Both the position numbers and the translations under genes were made by a program. The notes under the pieces were generated by a model. It searched no databases and was not told the origin of the DNA. It worked only from the letters and a program-made list of their open reading frames with translations. A stretch of 64,000 bases of DNA from Aquipluma nitroreducens. Lineage in GTDB: Bacteria > Bacteroidota > Bacteroidia > Bacteroidales > Prolixibacteraceae. The stretch's first letter is position 1. Each line of letters opens with the position of its first letter. The stretch is taken from positions 1,178,001 to 1,242,000 of the forward strand of contig NZ_AP018694.1 of assembly GCF_009689585.1 (NCBI RefSeq), written 5' to 3'. Below are positions 45,234 to 54,500 of this stretch, one piece after another.

Positions 45234-46121
45234 TCATTTAAACGATTCAGAACGAAACTGTACTGGAGTGAAACCAGTTTCCCTTTTAAAAAACTTCGTA
45301 AAATACGACTGATCTTCAAAGTTCAACTGATTAGCAATTTCAGAAATGCTCAAATTCGTATGAACCAGCAAACGTTTTATTTCAAGTAATTGTTTCGCTT
45401 TAATGATTTGGGAAGAAGTTTTGCCTGTCAGCGATTTTACGGTTTGGGTCAAATGATTCGGAGTTATGCCAATCATTCCCGAATAATCGCTCATCGAAAG
45501 ATTCTTCTGGTGATTTTCTTCGACCAGATGAAAAAACCGTTTAACCAGGATTTGTCCTTTCCCTTTATTCAACAGATTTTCAGTTACCTGATAACGAGCG
45601 GCACAGGTAGTCAGGATGAGATCGAGAATGGAGCGCAGCATTTCAGTATTTGATTCTTCAGTATCACGAATTTCAGCAATACCTTGCCTGAACAAACTTT
45701 CCAGGAAACGAATGTCATTCTCATTTTCGAGCAACAACGGCGGATTATCCTGATGAATGGTGTAAAAAAATGGAAATTCAATCAGGGTATTCTGATTGCT
45801 TCGATTGAGTAGGTAAAAATCAGCAGTAAAGATAAAAATGAAGCCTTCGATATCGTTTGAAAGTTCGAGTTTGTGCGCCTGTCCGGGCGACATAAAGAAG
45901 ACACAGGGTGGCTTGATTTCATACTTGTTTGTATCAATCACATGATAGCCAGAACCCTTCAACAGATACAATACCTCGAAAAAATCGTGCCGGTGTGGAT
46001 ATTTTACGCTAAAGTGACGGTTGGCATCAAACACCTCAACCTGAAATTGTTGACTTTTTCGTTCAGGAGAACTGAAATTGTGCAAACTATAAACCGGCAA
46101 TTGTTCGGCGTGATTCTTCAT
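45234..46121 (-). CDS. AraC-family transcriptional regulator
   Basis: 295 residues from ATG 46121 (MKNHAEQLPVYSLHNFSS); the in-frame ATG at 46142 lies inside a palindrome and is less likely. The N-terminal cupin-like part (YPHRHDFFEVLYLLKGSGYHVIDTNKYEIKPPCVFFMSPGQAHKLEL) binds a small ligand. The C-terminal AraC DNA-binding domain has MSDYSGMIGITPNHLTQTVKSLTGKTSSQIIKAKQLLEIKRLLVHTNLSISEIANQLNFEDQSYFTKFFKRETGFTPVQFR-type helices. It sits upstream of ilvC on the same strand, but no evidence ties it to branched-chain amino acids. Confidence 0.9.
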   Translation of the reverse strand: MKNHAEQLPVYSLHNFSSPERKSQQFQVEVFDANRHFSVKYPHRHDFFEVLYLLKGSGYHVIDTNKYEIKPPCVFFMSPGQAHKLELSNDIEGFIFIFTADFYLLNRSNQNTLIEFPFFYTIHQDNPPLLLENENDIRFLESLFRQGIAEIRDTEESNTEMLRSILDLILTTCAARYQVTENLLNKGKGQILVKRFFHLVEENHQKNLSMSDYSGMIGITPNHLTQTVKSLTGKTSSQIIKAKQLLEIKRLLVHTNLSISEIANQLNFEDQSYFTKFFKRETGFTPVQFRSESFK

Positions 46122-46125
46122 AAAT

Positions 46126-46152
46126 GTACTTTCGCATTGCATACGAAAGTAC
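46126..46152. promoter_or_regulatory. Palindrome at the start of the AraC-family gene
   Basis: GTACTTTCG (46126-46134) and CGAAAGTAC (46144-46152) are perfect 9-bp arms with a 9-nt spacer, 4 bp before the ATG at 46121. It may be an autoregulatory operator or a 5' UTR hairpin. Confidence 0.45.
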
Positions 46153-46182: not shown

Positions 46183-46725
46183 CTATAAATGCTGGCCTAC
46201 ATACACTGAAGATTTTTCCCAGGGAACAAAATTACCATCAAAGGTCAGTCTGCCCGAACTCATTCCTGTCAATGTTGCTGTTCCTCTACCTGAGGCTGAA
46301 ATATTAATAAACAAGTCGTAAATACCAATCGTAGTCATCACATTCATCCTTAAGGTAAATGCCTTGTGCTTTGCATCTTCAGTTAATTCCCACTTATTGA
46401 TATTGCCTTGCGCAGTTACACCACCCACTCCATTTGGACCTATTCTGAAATTCGAACCAATTTGAATTGTAGCTTCAGTAGAATCAACAGCGACAAAGTT
46501 AATCGTGGAATTTACGAGGACACGGTTACCATACCGGTCTTGTAAATAATCGGCCTCTAGCACAAAGTCTTTATTCTCCAGCATGGCTTTGGTCTGCTGA
46601 AAATCCTTTTCAAGATCAGCGTTCCGCTTTTCCTTTTTAGTTAGAATCGCATTTTCATCATTCCCCTGAGCAAACAAAACACTGGCCGAAATGATGAGTC
46701 CGAAAAATAGAATTAATCTTTTCAT
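46183..46725 (-). CDS. DUF4251 periplasmic protein
   Basis: 180 residues with a signal peptide (MKRLILFFGLIISASVLFAQ). The body LENKDFVLEADYLQDRYGNRVLVNSTINFVAVDSTEATIQIGSNF ... GGVTAQGNINKWEL follows the DUF4251 pattern; the C-terminus is beta-rich. The family is common in Bacteroidota and has no known function. It stands alone between the AraC gene and the ilvN terminator. Confidence 0.8.
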   Translation of the reverse strand: MKRLILFFGLIISASVLFAQGNDENAILTKKEKRNADLEKDFQQTKAMLENKDFVLEADYLQDRYGNRVLVNSTINFVAVDSTEATIQIGSNFRIGPNGVGGVTAQGNINKWELTEDAKHKAFTLRMNVMTTIGIYDLFINISASGRGTATLTGMSSGRLTFDGNFVPWEKSSVYVGQHL

Positions 46726-46915: not shown

Positions 46916-46964
46916 AAAAATGCCTAAAGTTCCTGACAAAGAATTGTCTATCAACTTTAGGCAC
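46916..46964 (-). terminator. Intrinsic terminator of the ilvDBN operon
   Basis: TGCCTAAAGTT (46921-46931) pairs perfectly with AACTTTAGGCA (46953-46963); a small GACAA/TTGTC hairpin lies in the loop; five T follow on the minus strand (46920-46916). Confidence 0.82.
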
Positions 46965-46992
46965 TTCAAATTGTGGCACTCCGAACTCTCTT

Positions 46993-47535
46993 CTAATCCA
47001 CCTGTTCGAGCATGGCATCGCGTTCTTGCAGAAAAACAGAAAGTCTTTCAATGGTACTACGGGTAATGGCAACCCTTCCAGAGCGTATAAACTGAGTGAC
47101 ACCAAAAGCATTCAATTCATCAAACAACTTTTGAGTTTCGTCTGAATGACCTGTTTTTTCGATTACCACATACTCGCGGGTAACTTCAAGGATTCGGGCT
47201 CCCGAATTACGTACGATCCTTTCCACTTCATCCGAATCGAACAAAAACTCGGTCGAAACTTTATACAGGGCAATTTCCTGATAAATCATCTCATCGTTCG
47301 TATTGGCAAAAACTTTCAGAACATCAACTATTTTCTCCAGTTGCCCAACAACTTTTTCAACCCTGTCAGCAGTTTCGCGAATCACAATGGTGAATTTAAA
47401 AACTCCGGCAATAGCCGATTCCGAAACCGTTAAACTGTCAATATTGATTTTCCGCCGGGTAAAAACAATCGTTATCCTACTTAATAATCCAATATGGTCT
47501 TCCGAAAAAACGGTTATGATATATTCTTGTTTCAT
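46993..47535 (-). CDS. ilvN: Acetolactate synthase small (regulatory) subunit
   Basis: 180 residues. Two ACT-type regions are visible: YIITVFSEDHIGLLSRITIVFTRRKINIDSLTVSES (1-40) and a second half with IYQEIALYKVSTEF and RAILEVTREYVVIEKTG-like segments typical of IlvH/IlvN. It binds valine and tunes the large subunit in the cytosol. It starts 12 bp after the ilvB stop and is the last gene of the operon before the terminator at 46916. Confidence 0.93.
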   Translation of the reverse strand: MKQEYIITVFSEDHIGLLSRITIVFTRRKINIDSLTVSESAIAGVFKFTIVIRETADRVEKVVGQLEKIVDVLKVFANTNDEMIYQEIALYKVSTEFLFDSDEVERIVRNSGARILEVTREYVVIEKTGHSDETQKLFDELNAFGVTQFIRSGRVAITRSTIERLSVFLQERDAMLEQVD

Positions 47536-47547
47536 GTCAGTATTGAT

Positions 47548-49245
47548 TTAAGGTTCGAGTAAAATATCAGAGATTGAAGCTCCGGTTGGAATCATTGGAA
47601 AAACATTATCTTCCTGTTCAACAACCACTTCAAGTACATATGGACCATTATGATCGAGCATTTCCTGAATAGCACCTTCCAACTGATCGCGTGAAGTTAC
47701 TTTCTGCGATGCCAATCCGTAAGCTTTGGCAATTCCAACAAAATCAGGGTTTTTCATTTCAGTAAACGAATACCGTTTTTCGAAAAACAGTTGCTGCCAT
47801 TGACGAACCATACCTAAAAAATTATTATTCAGGATGATGATTTTAACGTCCAGATTATATTGCGAAATCGTTCCCAATTCCTGAATGGTCATCTGAAACC
47901 CACCATCGCCCGACATCGAAAATACTGTACGATCAGGACGACCAATTTTAGCGCCCATTGCGGCAGGTAAACCATAACCCATTGTACCAAGTCCTCCGGA
48001 AGTGACATTACTTCTGGATTGGGTAAATTTAAAATAACGGGAAGCAATCATCTGTTGCTGACCAACATCGGTAACCAGAATTGCATCGTTGTTCGTTTTT
48101 TCGGAAGCAATGCGCACCACCTCACCCATGGTAAGTCCAACCTTCTTCGGATGAATATCATGCGAAATCACCTTCTCGTATTCAATTTTATCACATGCCC
48201 TAAATTCATTGAGCCATTCCTGATGCGAATTTGGTGCGACATTATCAATCAGCATCCGGAGCGATTTTTTTGCATTTCCTAAAACCGGAGCATCGGCATG
48301 TATAATTTTATTGATTTCAGCAGGATCGACTTCAAGATGTACAATTTTAGCCTGTCGGGCATATGCGGCCACTTTCCCGGTTACCCGATCGTCGAAACGC
48401 ATTCCAATGGCAATAACCACATCAGCTTCATTGGTTTTGATGTTCGGACCATAATTTCCATGCATTCCAAGCATTCCAACATTTAGCGGATGCTCGCTTG
48501 GAAGAGCCGAAAGTCCAAGCAAAGTCCATGCTGCCGGTATTCCGGTTTTTTCAACAAACTCTTTCAATTCAGCTTCAGCTCCACCCAGAACAACACCATG
48601 ACCAAACAAAACAATTGGCTTTTTTGCTTCGTTGATAATATCGGCAGCTGCTTTTACCTGAAATGGATCTACAGGATATTCAGGTAGGTAACTCCTGATC
48701 TTAGTGCATTTTTTATACTCAAAATCGATCTGAGCAAACTGCGCATCCTTCGCAATATCAATCAACACAGGTCCCGGACGGCCAGTAAGTGCAATGTGAA
48801 ATGCCTTGGCAATTGCTTCAGGAATTTCCTCAGCATGTGTAACCTGATAGTTCCATTTGGTTACCGGCAACGAAATACCCACCACGTCTGATTCCTGAAA
48901 AGCATCGGTTCCGAGCAATGGCGATGCAACCTGACCTGAGATACAAACCAATGGAATGGAATCAATCAGTGCATCGGCCAAACCTGTTATCAGGTTAGTT
49001 GCCCCAGGGCCCGAAGTTGCAAAGCAAACACCGACTTTACCAGTTACTTTTGCATAACCTTCGGCAGCATGAATTGCTCCCTGTTCGTGCCGGGTGAGGT
49101 AGTGAGTTACTTCCTGGTCGTAATCGTATAGTGCATCATAAATCGGCATGATTGCACCTCCCGGATACCCAAAAATTGTATCAACCCCTTCCGCCAAAAG
49201 AGATTTGATTACGGCTTCTGAGCCGTTTATTCGCTGTGTTGCCAT
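47548..49245 (-). CDS. ilvB: Acetolactate synthase large subunit
   Basis: 565 residues. The N-terminal part has IFGYPGGAIMPIYDAL and the catalytic Glu in LTRHEQGAIHAAEGYAKVTGKVG; the central FAD-type domain follows; the C-terminal TPP-binding motif is GLGTMGYGLPAAMGAKIGRP ... SMSGDGGFQMTIQELGTISQYNLDVKIIILNNNFLGMV (GDG to NN). It condenses two pyruvates, or pyruvate with 2-oxobutyrate. Second gene of the ilvDBN transcript; the 114-bp gap to ilvD contains AT-rich sequence with TTTAGG repeats but no clear terminator. Confidence 0.96.
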   Translation of the reverse strand: MATQRINGSEAVIKSLLAEGVDTIFGYPGGAIMPIYDALYDYDQEVTHYLTRHEQGAIHAAEGYAKVTGKVGVCFATSGPGATNLITGLADALIDSIPLVCISGQVASPLLGTDAFQESDVVGISLPVTKWNYQVTHAEEIPEAIAKAFHIALTGRPGPVLIDIAKDAQFAQIDFEYKKCTKIRSYLPEYPVDPFQVKAAADIINEAKKPIVLFGHGVVLGGAEAELKEFVEKTGIPAAWTLLGLSALPSEHPLNVGMLGMHGNYGPNIKTNEADVVIAIGMRFDDRVTGKVAAYARQAKIVHLEVDPAEINKIIHADAPVLGNAKKSLRMLIDNVAPNSHQEWLNEFRACDKIEYEKVISHDIHPKKVGLTMGEVVRIASEKTNNDAILVTDVGQQQMIASRYFKFTQSRSNVTSGGLGTMGYGLPAAMGAKIGRPDRTVFSMSGDGGFQMTIQELGTISQYNLDVKIIILNNNFLGMVRQWQQLFFEKRYSFTEMKNPDFVGIAKAYGLASQKVTSRDQLEGAIQEMLDHNGPYVLEVVVEQEDNVFPMIPTGASISDILLEP

Positions 49246-49359: not shown

Positions 49360-51189
49360 TTAGTCAATCAATCGCATTGCTCCGCGATCGGCTGAAGAAA
49401 CCATACTGGCATAGGCTTTCAACGCCTTGCTCACCTTACGGTCACGCGGGTTTGGCAGATATGCCATATTACCTTTTGCGACTTCAAGTTCTCTGCGCGC
49501 AGCTAATTCCTCATCACTCAGGAGAACATCAATTTTGCGTGTCAGGATATCGATTTCGATTAAGTCTCCATCCTGAATCAAAGCGATATCGCCGCCAGCA
49601 GCAGCTTCCGGAGAAACATGCCCAATTGACAATCCTGATGTTCCGCCTGAAAAACGTCCGTCGGTAATTAACGCACAAGCTTTGCCAAGGTTCATCGATT
49701 TGATGTACGAAGTTGGATACAACATTTCCTGCATTCCTGGGCCGCCCTTCGGGCCTTCATAAATAATGACTACCACATCGCCGGCCTGCACTTTATCGCC
49801 AAGAATTCCATTGCAGGCATCGTCCTGCGATTGGAATACCTTGGCAGTTCCTTTAAAATGATAGACTGAGGGATCAACTCCTGCGGTTTTAACAATACAG
49901 CCGTTGCGGGCAATGTTGCCGTACAAAACAGCCAAACCACCATCTTTGTTGTAAGCGTGTTCGTAATCGCGGATACAACCGTTGGCACGGTCGGTATCTA
50001 ATTCTTTAAAATAGTTTTCATGCGACCCCATAACCAGATTACGTCCACCACCGGGTGCTGATTTATATCTCCGGAAGGCATCTTCAATCGCTGTTGGAGC
50101 CATCACATCGTATTTGGCTATTGCTTCACCCAACGTATTTCCATCGGCACGAGGAACTGAAGTATCGAGCATACCTGCACGTGAAAGTTCGGCCAAAATA
50201 CCAAGGATTCCACCGGCACGGTTTACGTCTTCCATGTGGTAATTCCCACTTGGGGCAACCTTGCAAAGATTTGGGGTAACGCGCGACAATTCGTCAATGT
50301 CTTTCATCGTGAAATCGACTTCACCTTCTGACGCAATAGCCAAAATATGCAATACTGTATTGGTTGAACCGCCCATGGCAATATCGAGTTTCATCGCATT
50401 CTGGAAAGCAGCTTTTGTGGCAATATTTCGTGGCAAAACCTTTTCATTGCCATCTTGGTAATATTCGTAAGTCATATCAACAATCCGATTGGCAGCCTCA
50501 TCAAACAGACGCTTACGGTTAGCATGGGTTGCCAGAATAGAACCGTTTCCAGGAAGAGCCAGACCAAGTGCTTCGGCCAGACAATTCATTGAGTTAGCGG
50601 TAAACATTCCGGAACAAGAACCGCAGGTTGGACAAGCGTCACGTTCAACTTTTGAGATTTGCACATCGGAAACAGAGTTATCAGCGGCCATCACCATGGC
50701 ATCAACCAAATCATACATTTTACCATCAATCTTACCAGCTTCCATAGGACCACCAGATACAAAGATGACAGGTATATTGAGGCGCATAGCAGCCATCATC
50801 ATTCCGGGGGTAATTTTATCGCAATTTGAAATGCAAACCATTGCATCGGCGCGATGTGCATTGCACATAAATTCGACGCTATCGGCTATTACATCACGCG
50901 ATGGCAACGAATACAACATTCCGTCGTGTCCCATGGCAATTCCATCGTCAATGGCAATGGTGTTGAACTCTGCCGCGAAACAACCTTTTTTCTCGATGAT
51001 TCCTTTGATATACTGACCAACTTCATGAAGATGAGCATGGCCGGGGACGAATTGTGTAAACGAATTGACGATCGCAATTACTGGCCGTCCAAAATGTTCT
51101 TCCTTCATTCCATTTGCTCTCCAGAGGCTTCTTGCTCCAGCCATACGCCGTCCTTCGGTCGTTGTAGCTGATCTCAATCGATTTTGCAT
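49360..51189 (-). CDS. ilvD: Dihydroxy-acid dehydratase
   Basis: 609 residues. The Fe-S ligand and signature motifs are [42 protein letters not shown] and the C-terminal [20 protein letters not shown]. It dehydrates the dihydroxy acids made by IlvC to the 2-oxo acids of valine and isoleucine; the enzyme uses an iron-sulfur cluster. First structural gene of the operon, 26 bp after the attenuator terminator at 51216-51251. Confidence 0.97.
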
Positions 51190-51215: not shown

Positions 51216-51251
51216 AAAAAAAAGCCCTTCTCATTAAATGAGAAAGGCTTT
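51216..51251 (-). terminator. Attenuator terminator of the ilvDBN leader
   Basis: On the minus strand AAAGCCTTTCTCATT (51251-51237) pairs with AATGAGAAGGGCTTT (51235-51221, one U-G pair), then eight T (51223-51216), between the leader peptide and ilvD. Confidence 0.88.
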
Positions 51252-51284
51252 CAAGTTTTTAGCTTACATTATACCATTCTCATT
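51237..51284 (-). promoter_or_regulatory. Antiterminator pairing of the ilvDBN leader
   Basis: AATGAGAATGG (minus strand, 51284-51274), lying over the leader stop codon, is complementary (one mismatch) to CCTTTCTCATT (51247-51237), the 5' arm of the terminator. Forming it prevents the terminator. Confidence 0.75.
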
Positions 51285-51345
51285 CAGCACGAAGGAGGAC
51301 CACCACGCTGATAATGACTAGAGATATAATGCTGATATTTTTCAT
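51280..51345 (-). CDS. ilvL: ilv leader peptide (21 residues)
   Basis: The ATG at 51345 begins MKNISIISLV and the peptide ends VLLRAE with TGA at 51282-51280. Of 21 residues, five are Ile, four Val and three Leu, including a Val-Val-Val-Leu-Leu run. All three branched-chain amino acids are sensed by codon choice (ATC, ATT, ATA, GTC, GTG, CTA, CTC, CTT). It lies between a promoter and the terminator/antiterminator ahead of ilvD, the design of ribosome-mediated attenuation. Confidence 0.8.
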   Translation of the reverse strand: MKNISIISLVIISVVVLLRAE

Positions 51346-51367
51346 TACTGTTGTCGTTTAATGTTGG

Positions 51368-51397
51368 CAAATGTAGAAATTAATTTGAACAACCAAA
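51368..51397 (-). promoter_or_regulatory. Promoter of the ilvDBN operon
   Basis: Minus-strand -7 element TACATTTG (51375-51368) and -33 element TTTG (51397-51394) with 18 bp between. The transcript would start about 16 nt before the leader ATG. Confidence 0.6.
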
Positions 51398-51515: not shown

Positions 51516-54500
51516 TCATTTTATCAATACTTTTCGGCTTTCAGTCCTGTTTTCATAAACCATCCGAAGTATATATTGCCCTGATCGGAATCCTTTCACA
51601 TTTATCTGGAAACCATTCGAGATCGTAAAATCATCGTGAAGTTCTGAATAATAAACCTGACCATTCACTCCAACCAATTCAATTACATACATTCCGCAAG
51701 GTGCATTTTGCAATGAAATGTTCAACATATCTTTCGCCGGATTTGGAAATACCTGTAATTCGTTCTTTTTCATTTCGAATTCACCAACATGAACAGTAAT
51801 TTGAGTTGAAGCATCAAATTCTGCCGGAGTACTTTCCATTAAGCTAACATTGTCGGTGGCAATACTGTAGAATTTATACTTTGAACCAACATTACCAGTA
51901 AATTCAGCCGATTTTAAGGTTGTATTAATTTTAAATGGCCGCAGTGCAATGTCATTTTCCATTACATAAACAGAATAATATGCAACTCCTGAACCGACAT
52001 CACTACCAGTCCACGACACCGGAAAATTATTGTTGATAGTCGCATTAAGCGCATACACCTGACTTTGGGGTTTGTCTAAATCGAGCGTATTTACGAACTC
52101 ATTTGTCGCAATTGGAGTATTGGCATCAAATACAATGAATGCTTTATTTTTAAGTGCAGAATTTGTTCCCAATTCCTTTTTCAAACCAACCGAAAAGCTA
52201 ACAAACCCTTCACCTACCCGATTGGTATTATTTGGAGGAAGAAATCCAACAAACGGATCTTCCTCAATATCCATTGTGGTTGGATTTAATGACATAAATT
52301 CCCATTTAATAGCTCCTGAAATTGTATCCAGTTTTCCGGAAACGCGTGCAATCAAATTCATTTTTGGTTTCATGTCAACATCCATCGAAAATTGCCTCAG
52401 CTTCTTGCCATTAGGTGCAAGGATTGTATCGCCAAATCCGAATGATCCGAATCCGAACTCTTTGAAGTCAAATTTCTTTATATCAAGTGTATCCGTAACT
52501 GTGACAACATGTGCAGGAGCAGTTGCTGTGCTTTTGTTCTCGAACAAAATGGTATAAGGCATGGTATTGTTTTTCTGAACCCAATGCAGATCGCCAAATC
52601 CGGCAGGCCCGATCATTTCGTTGGGGTCGAAAGATGAAACGGCATTAATACCCATCTTATTTTTATACAGTGGATCATACAACTCGTGGCATTCCTTGTT
52701 TTTCTGATAACCGTCGAACATCGATTTAACCAACATTCCACCTTTCAGAATGGCTTCTGCCCCCGTAAAACTTGCCCCACAACTAATTACACACGATGAT
52801 AATCCATACACATGATCCCAGAATGTTTTAGGTTTATCGGGTTTCGGGCTAACGGCATCAAATGGATTCCAGGCATAAGTTAAAACATCGTAAGCACAAC
52901 CTATAGGCAATACCATACCAATAAGATCGGCGGCTCCTGATGAAGCGGCATCCATCGCTGCTGAAGCCACACAGGCATTCAGTTTCGTTTTCTGATCGGG
53001 CCAGTCATCGGTTGCTGAACTTGCACTCTTTGTAGAAGTTTGTTCAGTTCTGTAGAATGGTGCATTCATCCAGCTTTCAATATTAAAACTCCCCGGACTC
53101 TTCACCCTGATATGAATATTTTCAGAACTTTTAGCTGTAATCATCGGAACAACTAACGAATAAATCCGAGCATCCTTCCCAATTCCAAAGTAGTCTTTCC
53201 ATATAAAATAATCTTTTGTTCGCGCAGTTATTAAGGATGGAAATTTTGTTTTGATATATGCATTGGCTTCAATCCTGAAATCGATCAATTCGACTTCAGT
53301 TTCCGGATAATTCTGAATGGCGATATTTAATGGCACTCCCAACGCATCAAGATTCCCATTATTACCATAATTAATCGTGTACGATTGCCACCTGTTAAAT
53401 AAAATTGCTCCTCTACCCGAAACACTGACCCAAGGAGCTGGCTGTTCAGCCGTAACAATTGCAAAAGCATCTTTAAGAATTTGCTCCGCGCCATTTTGCT
53501 TAACAACCACATCCCATTTTCCAATTGCTTTTCCGTTCAGGTTAAAATAGGCAACAAGCACACCCTTGGCCGTCCCTACCAGTTTTTCTCCTGAAATATC
53601 AGATTCTCCCGACTTGCGCAAGGAAATTGTAGTTCCTTCAACAACCAAACCTCCACCGAAAACCGAAATTGTTGCATATCCGCCATTCCCAGCCTGAAGT
53701 GGTTCAACCCGGTCTAACCCAACGACAGTTGCTTTTTTAATGATTGCCGTTTTGCTGTTGCTATTCATGGCTTCGAGCGAAATGCTGTACTCTCCTGCTT
53801 TTGGATAAGAATATACAGGATTTCCATTATCTGAAACGGTTCCGTCGCCATAACTCCAGTTGTAGGTTTTCCCGTTTTGAGTTTTATTGGTCAGCGAAAC
53901 CTGATTCATGTTTTGGTAAAAGTCGAATTCAGGGATTGGAGGATTAAAATCGGAGGTCTTCAAAATGCCCAGATACAAAGGAATCGCATCATTTCCATTT
54001 CCGGAGACGTCTTTAAATGTATCGTCAAAATTCAGAAAAAGCTTTAATCCGGATTCATTACCAGTAAAGGTTTTTACCTGATTTTTCAACAGTTCGTCCT
54101 GCGAAAGTGCTTTATTCCATAATCTGATGTTATCGACCTGATATTTGGTGGTTCCATAAAATGCGCTTCTCGACCCAATCATCAACAGTCCATTTCCCTG
54201 AATAATCTTACCGGTCACGGTTTGCTGAGCGCTTAAAAGCCCGTCGACATAAGTTTTAAAATTATTCAATCCGGATTTGGCATTGTAGGTAAATGCAACA
54301 TGATGCCAAAGTGTATCAGCAATAGAACAGGCTCCCCAGTTGACAAAATCGCCCTTGTCGGTTTCCAATCCCGAATTAACACAGAATTTCCCATTGGTTT
54401 TTCGGAACCCTAACTGATAGCCATTGGGTGCATAATCGTAGGAATCTGCTCCGTTCACTTTAGCCAAAACATTTACCTCGTGCAGCGATGCAGGATCAAG

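Follow-up and report, generated by a model that had tools for sequence, protein, structure and literature searches.

What controls the branched-chain amino-acid genes that begin with ilvD in Aquipluma nitroreducens? The question is raised by the DNA at 51216-51397 of the window (the whole 64,000-nucleotide stretch analysed here), which lies between ilvD and a long upstream gene on the minus strand whose ORF ends at 51516. The answer favoured here, at a probability of about 93%, is a ribosome-mediated transcription attenuator through which charged tRNA-Ile, tRNA-Val and tRNA-Leu, by their supply, would set the expression of ilvD-ilvB-ilvN. The stretch holds an ORF rich in codons of the pathway, an intrinsic terminator between this ORF and the gene, and an antiterminator that excludes the terminator and shows complementary changes across relatives; a further property, that a stall on a control codon frees region 2 and arrival at the stop codon masks it, is seen in the folding model only. 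The reading thus draws on the parts themselves, their conservation, their complementary changes, the pathway-specific codons and the predicted effect of stall position. The parts are as follows.

51368-51397, minus strand: promoter-like motif, TTTG (51397-51394) and TACATTTG (51375-51368), 18 nt apart, read from the sequence
51280-51345, minus strand: leader peptide ORF, MKNISIISLVIISVVVLLRAE and its stop, 21 codons, read from the sequence and conserved in relatives
51303-51332, minus strand: predicted region 1, pairing with 51292-51280 and 51275-51266, from the RNA fold
51274-51284, minus strand: region 2, AATGAGAATGG, 5' arm of the antiterminator, overlapping the leader stop codon, from duplex and covariation
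51237-51247, minus strand: region 3, CCTTTCTCATT, common to antiterminator (2:3) and terminator (3:4), from fold and covariation
51225-51235, minus strand: region 4, AATGAGAAGGG, 3' arm of the terminator, from fold and covariation
51216-51252, minus strand: intrinsic terminator, hairpin 51252-51220 and a run of eight T at 51223-51216, from fold and script

Direct reading places the promoter motif and a 21-residue leader with 12 Ile, Val and Leu residues exactly where the first-pass annotation had put them. The same holds for regions 2, 3 and 4 and the eight-T run, and region 3 can indeed pair with either 2 or 4. The motif, which we take to be of the Bacteroidota promoter type, recurs in relatives: among the 62 single units whose sequence is long enough, 50 have TAnnTTTG no more than 75 nt from the leader ATG, against a background of 10 in 146 windows. 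The leader contains five Ile, four Val and three Leu (12 of 21 residues), all within codons 4-18, and leaders of this type are found at 19 loci, the window's own counted. The RNA from 51360 to 51213 folds at -47.2 kcal/mol (z -5.6; 0 of 200 shuffles equally good), the terminator part (51265-51213) has a z of -5.1, and the hairpin-plus-T-run script gives the terminator hairpin -19.2 kcal/mol. This hairpin is absent from the output of a generic sigma-70 and terminator scan, which does not cover this promoter type. The 3:4 helix is paired throughout, and the 2:3 helix at 10 of 11 positions with one T.T mismatch, giving a duplex of -14.3 kcal/mol. Regions 2 and 4 had also been described as sharing a core that makes the switch symmetric; a count over 20 close-group loci found this core, AATGAGAA, twice in 3 of them, and the symmetry is therefore not a conserved feature.

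Downstream of the terminator, the genes that would be controlled are these.

49360-51189, minus strand: ilvD, dihydroxy-acid dehydratase, first gene of the operon (NF009103 1048.8 bits, TIGR00110 788.9 bits)
47548-49245, minus strand: ilvB, acetolactate synthase large subunit, probably in the same operon (TIGR00118 736.6 bits)
46993-47535, minus strand: ilvN, acetolactate synthase small subunit, probably in the same operon (TIGR00119 104 bits)
46917-46967, minus strand: hairpin of -23.7 kcal/mol behind ilvN, where the transcription unit probably ends

A terminator was looked for in the gap between ilvD and ilvB, and none was found. Because of the hairpin at 46917-46967, ilvC (45031-43556) is probably a separate transcription unit; its control by the same switch was considered and rejected: the hairpin stands behind ilvN, and the gap between the AraC-type gene and ilvC showed no terminator. 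Between ilvN and ilvC lie an ORF of 180 aa (46183-46725) and a gene read as an AraC-type regulator (45234-46142). A second protein of the IlvD family, a 559-aa open frame with 35-46% identity, is encoded elsewhere in the genome (G000:C1:730341-731972; L002, L003).

A simpler account, which we regard as very improbable, would have the hairpin end the upstream gene, whose stop is near 51516, or act as a constitutive brake, and would treat the ORF as a chance hydrophobic microprotein. Intergenic hairpins with a T run are generally known to be common, and short hydrophobic ORFs are naturally rich in Ile, Leu and Val; yet a promoter-like motif and a conserved ORF stand between the upstream gene and the hairpin, and the pairing of ORF with hairpin recurs ahead of ilvD. 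IlvD is present in 81 of 101 genomes, the window's counted, and the upstream DNA was taken for all 81; one locus (L068) had no upstream sequence, and 80 had at least 100 nt. With a unit defined as an ATG ORF rich in Ile, Leu and Val followed by a terminator within 90 nt, 72 of these 80 loci, again counting the window's, carry one, a handful of them weak (for example L057, L059, L066, L072 and L081). One of the eight loci without a unit, L009, is cut by a contig end. When repeated with at least 300 nt of upstream DNA, the search was positive at 70 of 77 loci, in 0 of 462 dinucleotide shuffles and on 0 of 77 reverse strands. The leader ORF and its Ile, Val and Leu codons, whose conservation the first-pass annotation had proposed as a check, are thus kept in relatives.

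A second set of 80 named loci, from genomes overlapping with the first set, gave units at 61 of 70 loci titled as Bacteroidota (one, L151, is probably spurious) and includes a Prolixibacteraceae MAG with an IlvD 99% identical to the window's. Units were found at 0 of the 10 loci titled Spirochaetes, Fibrobacteres/Fibrobacter or Desulfo- that encode a similar IlvD, 69-72% identical to the window's. These ten attenuator-free records (L131, L132, L135, L140, L145, L154, L156, L158, L160 and L163) possibly reflect gene transfer without the switch, or partly misnamed MAGs. Run over 395 genomes from across the phylum, a covariance model of the unit gave candidate matches with E of 0.01 or better in 121, many of them weak.

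The leader codons also follow the pathway of the gene behind them. Valine makes up 36% of the Ile, Leu and Val residues in ilvD leaders (69 distinct leaders, 798 residues) and 1% in leuA leaders (2 of 239 residues, 23 distinct leaders). Such a leader was found at 25 of 29 leuA loci of relatives that had upstream sequence, under slightly looser criteria and with 30 loci taken (L242 lacked the upstream part); because at least 18 of the 25 come from the window's own genus, these leaders are not independent. Valine is no less hydrophobic, yet leuA leaders are nearly without it, which argues against a merely hydrophobic peptide. Leaders that match the operon behind them in the window's genome are listed here.

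L203:800-936 (G000:C1, about 3958299-3958435), plus strand: attenuator copy ahead of leuA, covariance model match
L223, reverse complement 1339-1468: His leader MSKAIKHYGHHHVILSLGRQ with terminator, ahead of hisG
L258, reverse complement 279-551, and L224: serial pair of Trp leaders upstream of a trpE-like gene (named by reading)

The leuA copy is the one strong further match of the covariance model in this genome (E 1e-7). Two of the weaker matches (third onward, E 0.009 and above) were inspected and dropped, as they showed no sensible unit rich in Ile, Leu and Val. The leuA leader, MTRFANISLLGLILGILLIWMRD, contains Leu and Ile, and Val is absent. One protein of the leu operon has citramalate synthase CimA as its best NCBIfam match (663 bits against a cut-off of 950), and the further genes, named from their translations, are leuC, leuD, leuB and a methyltransferase. 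A CimA-like gene would let the operon serve both Leu and Ile synthesis, which would fit the codons of its leader. The hisG gene (TIGR00070) is preceded by a His-rich leader (..HYGHHH..) and a terminator, and the Trp-rich leaders (..WLPWW.. and ..WWWH..) are each followed by a terminator of their own; His-rich and Trp-rich peptides at His and Trp operons likewise speak against chance hydrophobicity. The best 2:3 duplexes are -13.1 kcal/mol for the first trp leader and -11.7 kcal/mol for the his leader. For the second trp leader a convincing 2:3 partner was looked for and not found, the best duplex being -8.5 kcal/mol.

If regions 2, 3 and 4 form alternative helices, they should change together across relatives. 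Among 81 units (80 called automatically and one added by hand), region 3 is mostly CCTTTCTC or CCATTCTC and the matching region 2 mostly GAGAAAGG or GAGAATGG. Region 2 spans the stop codon in most units, whereas one group has it in the last leader codons (..EKG and stop). Outside the window's group, an A at the diagnostic position of region 3 goes with T in region 2 in 15 of 17 distinct units, and for a T the region 2 base is A or G in 35 of 38; another six units there have no readable diagnostic site. For the 61 distinct units outside the window's group, the 2:3 duplex with the unit's own partner averages -15.6 kcal/mol against -12.0 (sd 0.33) with swapped partners, so that a swap between units costs 3.6 kcal/mol on average, a difference reached in 0 of 2000 permutations. 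When the region-2 side was shuffled within each unit, at most 2 of 200 shuffles paired as well in 52 of 77 distinct units, and at most 10 of 200 in 68 of 77.

An alignment of 53 of the 80 units, from which 27 near-duplicate, divergent or doubtful units had been dropped beforehand, gave the same picture. The 3:4 helix is paired in 97.9% of cells and scores 0.292 for covariation (shuffled 0.174, sd 0.010), and the 2:3 helix in 92.5% of cells with a score of 0.271 (shuffled 0.186, sd 0.011), with 0 of 500 shuffles reaching either score. Both helices do better than their shuffles on paired cells, on two-sided cells and on the covariation score, and better than slid versions of themselves as well; for 2:3, 45 of 500 shuffles reached two of the five measures, namely pairs with a two-sided change and further pair types. 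One position varies as a triple, with A/T in region 2, T/A in region 3 and A/T in region 4. On a tree of 54 named loci the region-3 base changes six times, yielding three independent pairs, one of them on supported branches. An attempt to prove covariation on the tree was underpowered, the independent changes being too few for a sign test. Given this shared history and the small number of independent changes, the case rests on pairing and the other lines of evidence, not on a count of events.

Regions 2, 3 and 4 therefore do change in a complementary way across relatives, as the original claim had led one to expect, and covarying 2:3 partners are foreign to a plain terminator or brake. The window's own group departs from the rule: in 16 of 16 distinct units the diagnostic position of region 2 does not match region 3, and the 2:3 duplex carries one or two mismatches. 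Because of the mismatch at this position, the antiterminator of this group is weaker than in most relatives.

How stall position would act on the switch was modelled by folding the nascent transcript as far as region 3 after taking out the segment covered by the ribosome. The ribosome footprint was set at 12 nt from the A site. In this model, the probability of 2:3 pairing is 0.76-0.89 for stalls at codons 2-17, 0.69 at codon 18, 0.43 at 19, 0.09 at 20 and 0 at codons 21-22 (the last sense codon and the stop), so a stall at any of the Ile, Val and Leu codons should permit read-through, and no such codon stands beyond that range. The proposal that all three amino acids are sensed at once is supported by the model, which predicts antitermination at each of the 12 codons. 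In ribosome-free RNA the 2:3 probability is predicted to be low (0.13), because region 1 takes region 2, which is paired upstream with a mean probability of 0.55. The predicted region 1 helices are 51332-51323 with 51275-51266, 51317-51314 with 51283-51280, and 51311-51303 with 51292-51284. The first-pass annotation had reported no clear region 1; for the window the fold supplies one, yet a 1:2 protector hairpin is present, by the model criterion, in 45 of 81 units and missing in 36. Across the units, a stall beats arrival at the stop codon in 80 of 81 and beats ribosome-free RNA in just 45 of 81, so the protector hairpin is not a general feature. Since at equilibrium the complete RNA prefers 3:4 whatever the stall state (probability 0.63-0.88), the switch must be kinetic, decided before region 4 is transcribed.

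The following sequence of events would account for these features. RNA polymerase would start a few bases past TACATTTG, with a ribosome translating the leader behind it. When Ile, Val and Leu are plentiful, the ribosome would reach the stop codon and cover region 2, region 3 would pair with region 4, and transcription would end at the T run, presumably at 51216. When any of the three is scarce, the ribosome would stall on a control codon (codons 4-18) and leave region 2 free; 2:3 pairing, if kinetically favoured in the cell, would then form before region 4 is made, and polymerase would read through into ilvD. Starvation would in this way relieve termination. If translation is absent, region 1 would pair with region 2 and termination would follow.

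The absence, by the model criterion, of a 1:2 hairpin from 36 of the 81 units would fit a leader that acted on translation or on Rho-dependent termination and not through a choice between 2:3 and 3:4. A strong intrinsic terminator with a T run, together with a covarying and mutually exclusive antiterminator, leaves little need for such a mechanism, and we give it only a slight chance. Least probable of all is a T-box, riboswitch or other ligand- or tRNA-binding leader. Such elements are generally known to end in terminators ahead of ilv and leu genes as well, but the features conserved here are a reading frame and regions 2-4, and Rfam at the gathering cut-off matches no family, T-box included, anywhere in the window. 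With the threshold relaxed to E 5 over the attenuator, the best Rfam match is Thr_leader (RF00506; 22.9 bits against a cut-off of 55), and Phe_leader (RF01859) reaches 15.3 bits against 55. The ribosome-mediated attenuator accordingly stays the preferred reading.

The relatives also bear on the mismatch within the window's antiterminator. At nine of the 72 positive ilvD loci, two complete units stand one behind the other, and at L081 a first unit that starts with GTG is possible. A promoter motif lies near the leader in 9/9 upstream units, with TTG 15-27 nt before it in seven; among the downstream units the motif occurs in 1/9, 71 nt before the ATG and hence at the upstream terminator, and that TTG in 0/9. 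From the upstream terminator to the downstream ATG there are 19-54 nt in eight pairs and 117 nt in one. Judged from this motif placement and the short gaps, both units are probably on one transcript. The region 3 code is CCATTC in upstream and CCTTTC in downstream units in all nine pairs. Because the codes differ, each upstream region 2 forms its better helix with the region 3 of its own unit (9/9), and the downstream region 2 prefers its own in 8/9, L033 being the exception.

Both units of a pair carry codons for the same amino acids. The idea that serial units read different amino acids was examined in 11 pairs and found unsupported (Ile/Leu/Val 53/36/45 upstream and 43/37/39 downstream), with the Ile share higher upstream in 7/11 and the Leu share higher downstream in 8/11. 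The named set adds two-unit loci in Marinifilum fragile (L149) and Sunxiuqinia dokdonensis (L095); another Sunxiuqinia locus, L111, likewise has two units, and Draconibacterium (L100) has one. Among 17 stretches of more distant genomes, picked by model matches, the automatic caller found two units in six (L206, L207, L208, L209, L210 and L213); L211 and L212 have neighbouring model matches, yet the caller gave no unit there. In L206 / L259 (G357), two nearly identical Ile-rich units follow one another ahead of an ilvE-like gene (named by reading), along with a further terminator upstream and a third model match. These two units, probably a recent duplication, use a single pairing code, which shows that distinct codes are not a universal rule. 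In L207 and L208 (G125 and G322), a gene read as ilvN-like is preceded by paired leaders that are nearly pure runs of Ile (MKNIINIAVIIIIIIIR), and the switch there may read mainly Ile. Three further loci (L044, L046 and L052) have an upstream-type terminator (AACCATTCTC..) after a promoter-like motif at about -208 to -179 from ilvD; no leader rich in Ile, Leu and Val was found before it, and a decayed first unit is possible.

In the window's genus group, a leader and region 2 of the upstream type are joined to a terminator of the downstream type. Compared with L024, a locus of the same genus that has kept both units, the leader and spacer are nearer the upstream unit in 11/11 loci and the terminator nearer the downstream unit in 10/11, L019 being nearly tied and L007 nearer the upstream type. 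Immediately ahead of the terminator, both L024 units have AACGATATGAA(A)GCC, a repeat that would make a natural deletion point. Comparison with the other eight pairs is mixed; for example, in most rows the downstream unit is the closer one to the leaders when L033 is used, and the upstream unit the closer one to the terminators when L035 is used. On the tree, the window's group stands beside L093, which has one unit and only 164 nt of upstream sequence, and near the two-unit loci L094, L095 and L111. From these sequence comparisons, the window's unit is probably the product of a fusion between two serial attenuators, which would explain the mismatch in its 2:3 helix. Drift of the group's terminator without fusion is possible. 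Combining the fusion reading with the serial loci, we consider it reasonably likely that Bacteroidota place attenuators for the same signal in series with different pairing codes, and that the window's is a fused remnant of such a pair, in a genome that still carries a serial pair of Trp leaders. If so, polymerase would have to pass both gates, and a sharper response with lower leakage would be expected.

Leader-peptide attenuation is textbook biology, and Vitreschak 2004 reportedly mentions Bacteroidetes/Chlorobi. The leu, ilvGMEDA and ilvBN attenuators of E. coli and Salmonella have a leader peptide rich in the amino acids of the pathway and a mutually exclusive antiterminator and terminator. 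The unit described here resembles them in both respects and in the kind of target; unlike them, it has region 2 on the leader's own stop codon and a different promoter type, and it shows no sequence relation to them, the Rfam leader families falling below their cut-offs. That the same ilv/leu logic operates in Bacteroidota, as the first-pass annotation proposed, is supported by leader conservation and complementary changes. The leu, ilvGMEDA and ilvBN attenuators of E. coli and Salmonella are named in PMC1183508.

Within the phylum, strong clues for leader-peptide attenuation ahead of amino-acid biosynthesis operons have been described for Flavobacterium psychrophilum, in a main text that does not mention ilv (PMC9723704). 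In Bacteroides thetaiotaomicron, short ORFs in long 5' UTRs are reminiscent of attenuation leader peptides; the example given is a hypothetical gene, and the main text is again silent on ilv (PMC7366714). The Rfam motif Bacteroid-trp (RF01692), a cis-regulatory RNA of Bacteroidetes (PMC2864571), is tied by its name to trp and thus to a different amino acid; in the window's genome its best match, 30.7 bits against a cut-off of 49, falls at the serial Trp leaders. Serial control has parallels elsewhere. In Salmonella mgtCBR, a single leader RNA contains two short ORFs that work as attenuators, with ATP and proline as signals (PMC3641672); the serial units here differ in having a terminator each and codons for the same amino acids. 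In bacilli, thrZ and trpE have multiple adjacent T-boxes, two or three antitermination units in series ahead of the gene (PMC2494555). Unlike the serial units here, T-boxes bind tRNA and have no leader peptide. No report of this attenuator or of serial leader-peptide attenuators in Bacteroidota was found among the titles and abstract openings of the open papers listed, a scope outside which Vitreschak 2004 and Lopatovskaya 2010 lay. The kind of attenuator is known and was already suspected in Bacteroidota; the serial arrangement in relatives is the more novel part.

Taken as a whole, the evidence, all of it computational, gives a complete, order-wide picture of how Bacteroidales may adjust the synthesis of branched-chain amino acids, through an RNA element that has no Rfam match. 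Its covarying core serves as a model that finds further copies, such as the one ahead of leuA in the window's genome. The serial units are a natural experiment, placing two attenuators for the same signal in one leader and offering a view of how such pairs arise and collapse.
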